Shown in pieces: positions 5,284 to 8,623 of a stretch of DNA of 64,000 bases (positions are counted from its first letter, which is position 1; each line of letters begins with the position of its first letter). The notes beneath the pieces are model-generated. The model searched no databases, was not told where the DNA came from, and was given only the letters and a program-made list of their open reading frames with translations. The position numbers and the translations under genes were made by a program. This DNA comes from Streptomyces sp. STR69. GTDB lineage: Bacteria > Actinomycetota > Actinomycetes > Streptomycetales > Streptomycetaceae. The stretch is from positions 1 to 64,000 of the forward strand of contig NZ_JALJRY010000004.1 of assembly GCF_024519455.1 (NCBI RefSeq), read 5' to 3'.

Positions 5284-6073
5284 TTCGGACACAGTACTCC
5301 CAGTGCAGAGTTCTTCTCTTACTCGGAGCACACCAGGACTCCCCCGAGGGGGAGGACGTTGACGCAGAACAGGAAAGCAGTGACCTGCGGTCCGGACTAC
5401 CAACCGGAAAGCAATTTCGTGTGCCTCGGAAGCATACACCGATAACTCGCCGCCAGGGACGGATCAACCCTGCAATATGCGGGAGTTCACTACTTCTGCA
5501 CTATTGAAGAAAGCCTTCACTCAATTACCGAGTAAGTCCTTGACACATTGCGAGACACCTGGTCAGCCAAACGTGATTTGACGAATGAGGGAATATGCGC
5601 TCGTGTTCCACTCGACAGCTGTCATCCAGCACCGTCACCTGTTTCAAGCAGTTGGCGATGAACGGGCACGGGTGAAGGCTCAGGCTGAAGCGATCGCCGC
5701 CAACTCTCGACGAATCCGCGGCCCGTACGGAGAATCAAGCACGCTTCGCGCGGCGACATCACGAAGGTGAATACCCTGCTGCCCTCAGCCGAGTACCTGC
5801 TCGTCGGACTCTTCCTGGGACGCGACGATCCAGAACTCCGACTTGAAGCGGTAGGCGGTGGCGTTCCGATGGGCTCCTCGATGGCCGTGGTGTGGTACCC
5901 GGCGTCCGGACGGACCTTCATGACGCGGGGGTGGACAGCAGGACGGGAAGTAGTACCGCGGTACTAGCCGGCTGCGCCGGATTCCGTTCTTCCGTACGGG
6001 ATGGTTGCCCAATACCGCTCCTACGTTGAGATCGCGGGTCGGTCAGGCCCAGCTCACCCAATGATCTCTTCTC
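5284..6073. other. 790-bp region with no convincing gene; lower G+C than its surroundings
   Basis: The stretch 5440-5640 is distinctly less GC-rich than the rest of the window. Short open frames exist on both strands (5585-5770 plus, 5622-5921 minus, 5785-6012 minus) but none shows a domain or codon bias along its whole length. On the minus strand the peptide pieces KVRPDAGYHTTAIEEPI and AYRFKSEFWIVASQEESDEQV look protein-like but lie in different frames, which suggests a decayed gene around 5790-5925. The region should also hold the promoters of the FAD monooxygenase and of the MMPL gene; I could not fix them. Confidence 0.45.
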
Positions 6074-7876
6074 TTGGTGGGAGTGATCGTGGCCACCTTC
6101 CTCTATCGGCTCGGCCGGCTGTCGTTCCGGCAACGACGCATCGTCGTGATGCTGTGGATCGCCGTCCTGGCCGCCATCGGTATCGGCGCCATGAGTGCGC
6201 CCGGCACGTCCTCCGGGGCCCTGAGCGTTCCGGGCACGCAATCGCAGAGGGCGATCGACCTGCTGCAGAAGGAGTTCCCGCAGGCCTCCGCCGACGGCGC
6301 CACGGCGCGTGTGGTGTTCGAGGCGCCCAGCGGGCAGAAGCTCACCTCCGCCGCCAACAGGGCGGAGGTGGAGTCCCTGGTGGCGAAGCTGGAGAAGTCG
6401 CCGCAGGTGTCGGGCGTCGCCGATCCCTTCACCAGCGGCCTGGTCAGCAGGTCCGGCACCATCGCCTATACCCAGGTGTCCTACAAGGTCGCCCAGGCCG
6501 ACGTGAGCAGCGCGGCCCACACCGTCCAGACCGACGTCGTCCAGCAGGGCGAGAAGGCCGGCCTGAAAGTGAGCCTGGGCGGCAACGCCGTCAAGGACAA
6601 GGCCGCGAGCAAGGCGGCCGAGCTGATCGGCGTCGGGGTCGCCGCCGTTGTCCTGGTGATCACCTTCGGCTCGCTGATCACCGCCGGACTGCCCCTGCTC
6701 ACCGCGATCCTCGGGGTGGCCGCAGCCGTCCTGTCGGTCACGCTCGCCACGCGTTTCTTCGACCTGGCCTCGGCCTCCACGACCCTGGAGCTGATGCTGG
6801 GCCTGGCCGTCGCCATCGACTACGCCCTGTTCATCGTCTCGCGCTACCGCAACGAGATCCGCGACGGCCACGAGCCCGAGGAAGCCTGCGGACGTGCCCT
6901 GGGCACCGCCGGATCCGCGGTGGTCTTCGCCGGACTGACCGTGATCGTCGCGCTGAGCAGTCTGAGCGTCATCGGCATCGGCACGCTCACCGCCATGGGC
7001 CTGGCCTCCGCCTTCGCCGTCGCCGTCGCCGTGGTCATCGCACTGACCCTGCTGCCCGCCGTCCTGGGATTCGCCGGCCTGCGGATCATGAAGGGCAAGC
7101 TGCACACCCGCCGTATGAAGGCGCTGGAGCGCGGCGAGGGCGAGTCGATGGGCGTGCGCTGGGCGAAGTTCGTCACCCGCAATCCCGTCAAGGTGCTCGC
7201 GGCCTCGGTGGTCGGCCTGGCCCTGCTGGCCATCCCCGCGATGTCCCTGCAGATGGCCCTGAACGACGACTCCATGAAGCCTCCCGGCAGCACCCAGCGC
7301 GTCGCCTACGAGACCCTCAGCAAGGGCTTCGGGCCGGGCTTCAACGGACCGCTCACCGTGGTCGTCGACGCCCGGGCCGGCGACAGTCCCAAGGCAGCCG
7401 CCCAGGACGCGTACGCCATGCTGAGCAAGCTGGACGATGTCGCCGCCGTTCGTCCCCCCTCCTTCAATCAGGCCGGCGACGTGGCTCTGCTCGGCGCCGT
7501 TCCCAAGAGCGCCCCCACCAGCGAGGCCACCAAGAACCTGGTCAACGAGATCCGCGGCCACGGCGCCGCCCTGCACCAGGACACCGGCGCCGAACTGATG
7601 GTCACCGGCCTGACCGCCGTCAACATCGACGTCAGCACCAAGCTCTCCGACGCCCTCGTGCCCTATCTGGCCATCGTCGTGGGCCTGGCCCTGGTCCTGC
7701 TCCTGCTGGTCTTCCGGTCGATCGTGATCCCGCTCAAGGCCGCCCTCGGCCTGCGGGAACGCGTCACCGCCCTCGGCGGGCATCTGAACTCCGGACCGTC
7801 CGGCGGGGGCGCCTGGCGGCTGGCGGCACGCATCCCCCACCCTGCCGACATCGAACAGAACGGCACCCGCTCATGA
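6074..7876 (+). pseudogene. MMPL-family transporter truncated and fused in frame to a histidine-kinase C-terminus
   Basis: The first about 560 residues are an actinobacterial MMPL/RND exporter: N-terminal membrane helix, a periplasmic domain, the helix bundle with VAIDYALFIVSRYRNE (proton-relay Asp), the conserved LLPAVLG, then the second periplasmic domain and the first helix of the second bundle. At about residue 559 the sequence switches to LRERVTALGG followed by a Gly-rich strand, the end of a NarL-partner histidine-kinase ATPase domain, for the last 41 residues. A full MMPL protein would need roughly 150 more residues. The stop overlaps the response-regulator start (ATGA), as expected of the lost kinase. 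The transporter is probably non-functional; start assumed at 6074. Confidence 0.78.
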
Positions 7877-8523
7877 TCCGCGCCATGATCGTCGACGACG
7901 ACGCCCTGGTCCGCCTCGGCCTGGCCGACCTCCTCAACGACGACCCCGGTATCGAGGTCGTGGCCCAGGCCCCGGACGGCCTGAAGGCCATCGAACAGGC
8001 CACGGCCCACCGCATCGACGTCGCATTGGTCGACGTACGCATGCCCCACATGGACGGCATCACCGCCACCGCCCGCCTGCGAGCCCTCCCCCACCCGCCG
8101 AAAGTGATCACCCTGACCACCTTCAACCTCGACGAATACGTCTACAACGCCCTCGCCGCCGGAGCCGACGGATTCCTCCTCAAGGACACCGACCCCGCCG
8201 AGATACTGCGCGCGGTCCACCTGGTGGCCGCCGGCTCGGCCATGCTCCACCCCACTGCGGCCCGCCGCCTCATCGACCGCTACCACGCCGCCAACCAGCC
8301 CCGAGCAATCGCGGCCAGGGACCGGCTGGACCGCCTCACCCCCCGCGAACGCGACGTGCTCGCCCTGCTCGCCCAGGGCGACACCAACGCCGACATCGCC
8401 GCCCAACTCGCCATGCGCGAGAGCACCGTCAAGTCCCACGTCAGTCGCATCCTGACCTCGCTGGAGGTCACCAACCGAGTCCAGGCCGCCCTCCTGGCCC
8501 GCGACGCGGGCCTCACAGCCTGA
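7873..8523 (+). CDS. NarL/LuxR-family response regulator
   Basis: A 216-residue two-component response regulator. The receiver domain has the acidic pair in IVDDDALVR, the phospho-acceptor Asp in VDVRMPHMDG (about residue 54) and the Lys in FLLKDTDP. The C-terminal LuxR-type helix-turn-helix reads LTPRERDVLALLAQG with the recognition helix ESTVKSHVSRILTSL. The ATG overlaps the preceding stop by ATGA, so it was translated together with a sensor kinase of which only about 41 residues remain upstream. The regulator therefore appears to be an orphan in this genome unless another kinase serves it. No autoregulatory site was identified. Confidence 0.92.
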   Translation: MIRAMIVDDDALVRLGLADLLNDDPGIEVVAQAPDGLKAIEQATAHRIDVALVDVRMPHMDGITATARLRALPHPPKVITLTTFNLDEYVYNALAAGADGFLLKDTDPAEILRAVHLVAAGSAMLHPTAARRLIDRYHAANQPRAIAARDRLDRLTPRERDVLALLAQGDTNADIAAQLAMRESTVKSHVSRILTSLEVTNRVQAALLARDAGLTA

Positions 8524-8623
8524 GGAACGCAGAGACCTGAGGCGGCCGGTCCCGGATTCGAGCGGAGCGCATTCTTCGGCTCCGACGCCTGGCCTCACAT
8601 CCACAGTCGTCACGCCTAGGGCC

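Follow-up and report, generated by a model that had tools for sequence, protein, structure and literature searches.

How does an open reading frame that begins as an MMPL exporter come to end as a histidine kinase, in direct contact with a response regulator gene? A locus in the 64,000-nucleotide stretch of Streptomyces sp. STR69 DNA analysed here (the window) raises this question. The frame, the junction and the ATGA overlap with the regulator gene are all present in the assembly as first described: a single open frame on the plus strand (6089-7876) has 595 codons, 554 of MMPL and 41 of kinase origin. The initial annotation was right about the in-frame fusion and its 41 kinase residues. The likely start is the GTG at 6089 that the orthologs share, not the TTG at 6074 that it had used, and the MMPL part has 554 codons rather than about 560. 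Its claim that the stop codon keeps the overlap holds exactly, with the regulator ATG at 7873-7875 and the TGA of the chimera at 7874-7876. We put at close to nine in ten the probability that this fusion is the scar of a deletion within a gene cluster of Streptomyces (Table 1).

Table 1. Features of the fusion locus, in window coordinates
Feature	Position	Strand	Evidence
Conserved upstream (promoter) region of the MMPL gene	5937..6088	+	Homology to close relatives begins in its first bases
Perfect palindrome TAGTAC-CGCG-GTACTA, probable operator	5951..5966	.	One match in the window; conserved place in close orthologs
MMPL-derived part, 554 codons, TM1 to TM8, GTG start	6089..7750	+	Pfam PF03176 1.4e-68; ortholog identity; common start codon
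CCGCCCTCGGC pair (7740-7750 and 7767-7777), not the join	7740..7777	.	Intact G239 cluster already has both copies
TCGGC microhomology, the deletion join, common to MMPL and kinase parents	7746..7750	.	Aligned parents in G140 and G239
Kinase 3 remnant (HisKA_3/HATPase histidine kinase), last 41 codons and stop	7751..7876	+	89-92% nucleotide identity to relatives (together with the regulator); domains of intact G140 kinase 3; tail residues
LuxR/NarL-type response regulator, intact, orphaned	7873..8523	+	Pfam Response_reg 1.3e-27, GerE 2.7e-18; orthologs at 90-91% amino acid identity

Both parts of the chimera have traceable parents. The chimera matches PF03176 (MMPL, RND superfamily exporters) with 231.7 bits against a gathering score of 20.5. 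In all 33 related stretches compared, MMPL homology breaks off at 7749-7750 (matches over 80 bp; four genomes are present twice and two stretches are paralogs from the window's own genome). The MMPL part is 92-94% identical in DNA to close full-length orthologs, including those of S. pseudovenezuelae, S. sporangiiformans, S. flaveus, S. hokutonensis, S. phaeochromogenes, S. canus, S. griseoruber and S. scopuliridis, and 72-84% identical to more distant stretches. Matches at E 1e-200 or better were found in 21 of 246 genomes, counting its own. The 25 matches outside the window (two of them the own paralogs) are open frames of 749-1106 codons, and each aligns only up to query residue 560-565; that of G125 starts at residue 107. 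This S. griseoruber ortholog (G125; L060 / L025) shifts frame between about codons 107 and 158, either naturally or by sequencing error. On the other side, homology to the kinase tail plus regulator begins at 7746, inside the kinase, in all five stretches that hold that side (seven were compared, two of which hold the MMPL side only). Several genomes that carry the MMPL ortholog also carry the regulator ortholog, and in five (G140, G239, G125, G011, G226) it follows a kinase in a 401-codon frame.

The join itself appears in one genome. A 66-residue junction peptide found matches in 34 of 392 genus genomes at E 1e-8, and the sole match across the join is in the window's genome; the remaining matches start at residue 23 or 24, on the kinase side. 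Among 296 relatives there were 16 matches, of which again the own genome alone crosses the join, and the other 15 were already among those of the 392 genomes. These searches took the best 15 and 20 candidates per genome and one genome per species, a scope that fusions to other kinases would escape. The check set by the initial annotation, a comparison with relatives for the same fusion architecture, thus gave none in either set save the own genome. A plasmid search returned 160 matching records, none covering 80% of 6000-8600.

In two relatives the parents lie on one contig, in the same order and on the same strand as in the window, 7.8 kb apart in G140 and 18.9 kb apart in G239. G011 and G125 are compatible with this order, with a contig break between the parents. 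The G140 cluster reads MMPL, kinase 1 (with HisKA_3 and HATPase_c domains), GDSL lipase, kinase 2, regulator 2, a methyltransferase on the minus strand, kinase 3 and regulator 3. The kinase tail and the regulator of the window belong to a separate two-component pair further along the cluster. We rejected loss of the kinase directly adjoining MMPL because the tail is homologous to kinase 3 rather than to kinase 1. The stretch between the two parents in G140 holds the MMPL 3' end, kinase 1, the lipase, kinase 2, regulator 2, the methyltransferase and most of kinase 3. A deletion of the MMPL 3' part and most of a kinase gene had been proposed at the outset; the deletion stands, and it was larger than that, with several whole genes gone (7.8 kb by G140, 18.9 kb by G239). 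The cluster varies in other ways. In G140 (L111 8277-10589) the lipase lies within 70 bases of kinase 1, which leaves no space for a regulator, and the arrangement in L053 and L057 looks similar; G239, unlike G140, has regulator-like sequence after kinase 1. Other relatives probably carry a regulator 1 after kinase 1, and the cluster seems to lose genes repeatedly.

The deleted middle was not found at ortholog-level identity in the own assembly, a draft of 130 contigs that is 99.88% complete. Orthologous middle pieces are 87-96% identical between relatives, whereas own-genome matches to the G140 middle that are at least 300 bp long lie at 65-84%, and only short ones exceed this. The best places are two paralogous clusters (C75:371-378 kb and C119:190-195 kb). 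These MMPL-kinase-regulator clusters (C75:371071-377662, L044; C119:190736-195032, L045) have MMPL genes 77% and 69% identical, with frames of 840 and 768 codons. Judged on these frames both clusters appear intact, and they may cover for the loss.

We can place the join at five bases. The aligned parents in G140 and G239 have TCGGC in common, and kinase sequence continues after it. The MMPL copies of G125 and G011 read TGGGC at this site; the ancestral bases are thus reconstructed, and the five rest on G140 plus G239. Random joins between the two G239 genes have at least five shared bases in about 1.1% of cases. With parents in one cluster in relatives and short shared bases at the join, the locus has the features of a microhomology-mediated deletion scar, and we infer the repair pathway from them. 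A study of break-repair scars in S. ambofaciens (PMC5869714) gives micro-homologies of 1-6 nt in 50% of them and deletions of 191-23,591 bp. The deletion size and microhomology here fit these figures for Streptomyces break repair.

The initial annotation had drawn attention to CCGCCCTCGGC, which occurs twice near the junction. Both copies lie where it named them, and neither is the deletion site. Recombination at this repeat was considered and rejected: a crossover within it would leave one copy. Both copies remain, and both already exist in the intact MMPL and kinase genes of G239, 19 kb apart. Repeats of 11 bases within 50 bp are rare, at 14 of 63,939 window positions.

Could the assembly, or the sequencing behind it, have wrongly joined two distant stretches at 7746-7750? 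A draft of 130 contigs leaves room for such an error. However, the two pieces have only five bases in common, in relatives they form the two ends of a single cluster, correctly ordered and oriented, and the lost middle does not turn up elsewhere in the assembly at ortholog-level identity. We consider an artefact very unlikely.

Sequence outside about 5937-8545 does not match the context of the cluster in relatives. Upstream of 5937 the window matches none of 14 other upstream stretches of up to 3 kb; among all 15, shared sequence longer than about 200 bp is confined to G140, L053 and L057. Among six downstream stretches one pair shares 51 bp. The flanks of the window have their matches elsewhere in the relatives, and those of G140 find only weak matches in the own genome. 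The outer edges of the cluster are alike across relatives and the sequence beyond differs, as if the cluster moves as a block; no integrase was found among the eight G140 genes run through Pfam. The differing flanks outside the 2.6-kb module might suggest that a transposition or inversion brought the two pieces together and moved the missing middle elsewhere. Yet the own genome, a draft at 99.88% completeness, holds no ortholog-level middle, and the two pieces have the same order and strand as in G140 and G239, which makes this reading very improbable. Rather, the differing flanks imply that relocation happened as well as deletion, and that the scar sits in a new place.

The deletion would then have run as follows. 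Two ends, one in MMPL codons 553-554 and the other at the end of the kinase 3 ATPase domain, would have been joined at the 5-base microhomology. Everything between them was removed, as the comparison with relatives shows, presumably by end joining. The join kept frame, and a ribosome leaving the MMPL part would stop at the old kinase stop and, through the ATGA overlap seen in the sequence, could hand over to regulator 3 by translational coupling. Of the three possible frames, only the observed one keeps the original overlap; of the other two, one would stop at 7785-7787 and the other would enter the regulator frame and stop at 8521-8523. The effect likely to remain is that the MMPL promoter, in place of the kinase 3 promoter that was lost, would now drive the orphan regulator.

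What did the chimera lose? MMPL exporters have twelve transmembrane segments (TMs) with an Asp-Tyr pair in TM4 and in TM10, and such pairs form a proton relay. Hydropathy and alignment with MmpL3 place the loss after TM8, with TM9-12 gone; the last hydrophobic stretch is 518-556. The chimera has one Asp-Tyr motif (D244-Y245), against two in the G140 ortholog (244 and D605-Y606), and lacks the make-up of an MMPL exporter. Nor is it a histidine kinase. Intact G140 kinase 3 has HisKA_3 at 190-256 and HATPase_c at 302-376 of 400 residues, with His 199; the tail lacks the phospho-acceptor His and most of the ATPase domain, and it had no Pfam match at E up to 1. With TM9-12, the second Asp-Tyr pair, the phospho-acceptor and the bulk of the ATPase domain lost, a working pump or kinase is unlikely. 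Judged by its sequence, the chimera most likely neither transports nor phosphorylates and is a dead remnant.

We looked for pseudogene decay in the MMPL part and saw none; its 554 codons are free of stops and indels. Pairwise dN/dS against relatives is 0.26-0.40, and among the relatives themselves 0.19-0.40 (mean 0.31). A count over the 554 codons with nine relatives, which excluded L058 and L059 as more distant and the S. griseoruber copy (G125/L060) for its frame shift, gave 7 nonsynonymous to 14 synonymous unique changes in the MMPL part, against 67 to 99 summed over the nine relatives (Fisher p 0.64). The regulator, with 9 nonsynonymous and 8 synonymous unique changes, likewise does not differ from five relatives (27 and 29, p 0.79). 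The absence of decay means that the deletion is recent or that the MMPL part is still under selection; it fits the first and would also fit a part still in use.

In the second case, compatible with deletion, the chimera would be a selected, working half-size MMPL with a short cytoplasmic tail, retained for a remaining ability to bind partners or ligands, and produced together with regulator 3 so that the two form a new pair. Its frame is open and free of stops, the regulator overlap and the upstream palindrome are kept, and nonsynonymous changes (7 of 21) are fewer than site numbers alone predict (binomial p 0.0002). Against this, a recent deletion predicts the same substitution pattern, an in-frame join has a one in three chance, the fusion is present in a single genome, and TM9-12 and the second Asp-Tyr pair are missing. 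We regard a working chimera as very unlikely.

The deletion left the regulator whole. It has a receiver and a C-terminal helix-turn-helix (PF00072 and PF00196), as LuxR/NarL-type regulators do, and the stretches VDDD, VDVRMPHM, LTTF and LLKD, which we take to be its receiver Asp-pocket motifs. No complete cognate kinase lies alongside, the upstream kinase being cut to 41 codons, and in a DNA-level search the G140 kinase 3 region has only four short matches, of 77-84%, in the own genome. Both products of deletion foreseen by the initial annotation are therefore supported: the in-frame chimera by the homology edges and the cluster of the relatives, and the orphan response regulator by the reduction of its kinase. 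The original promoter of regulator 3, expected before kinase 3, would be gone, and the nearest same-strand upstream promoter region left would be that of MMPL, from which the orphan may now be read.

This promoter region carries a conserved palindrome. Homology to the close orthologs begins at 5937-5953, and the palindrome TAGTACCGCGGTACTA at 5951 occurs in the same place with 0-1 mismatch in all 11 stretches of window and close orthologs. The window holds one match, against 0.05 expected in shuffles with up to 2 mismatches. The motif TAGTAC-N4-GTACTA precedes MMPL genes in the window (5951-5966) and in L040, L042, L043, L113-L114, L116, L117, L054 and L056; no copy was found upstream of four MMPL loci that are more distant (L062, L068, L070, L071). 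Both own paralogous clusters (L044, L045) carry it upstream, one with 1 mismatch. An extra copy (0-1 mismatch) lies inside the cluster in G239, G125, G011, L054 and L056, ahead of kinase 2 where that gene is present, and none with up to 2 mismatches lies beside the kinase 3-regulator 3 pair in the five genomes scanned. From its sequence and placement, the palindrome looks like an operator of an MMPL/two-component regulon, and it probably belongs to another regulator of the cluster. A literature search for the GTACTA motif with Streptomyces response regulators gave no paper evidently on the motif by its title or the start of its abstract, and a search for the palindrome together with Streptomyces, MMPL, two-component systems and histidine kinases found nothing. 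A rewired circuit is conceivable, in which regulator 3 is translated behind the half-MMPL from the TAGTAC-N4-GTACTA promoter, bound maybe by regulators of the paralogous clusters, and the half-transporter persists as a decoy or as a sensor of ligands at the membrane. We give this very little credence.

For annotators, the MMPL gene here is probably broken. As a natural deletion scar with parents traceable in relatives, the locus shows one way in which an orphan regulator and a chimeric ORF can come about in Streptomyces. The wider cluster, with its MMPL gene, several kinases and conserved palindrome, is more interesting than the fusion. The scar is new as an instance and ordinary in kind, a chromosomal accident cleanly readable by comparison.

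How does the locus compare with known systems? The regulator here has a receiver and a LuxR-type helix-turn-helix but no linked kinase gene, as orphan response regulators of Streptomyces do; Aor1 (PMC5733086) is one example, presumably with these domains too. It differs in that the remnant of the lost kinase is visible beside the gene. With MMPL exporters (PF03176; nearest solved relatives by sequence MmpL3, e.g. 7nvh) the chimera agrees over residues 1-554, the first Asp-Tyr pair among them, whereas TM9-12 and the D605-Y606 of the G140 ortholog are missing. Finally, like the double-strand-break scars of the Streptomyces repair study (PMC5869714), ours is a kilobase deletion joined at a microhomology of a few bases; those were induced by I-SceI, whereas this one points, by comparison with relatives, to a natural event.
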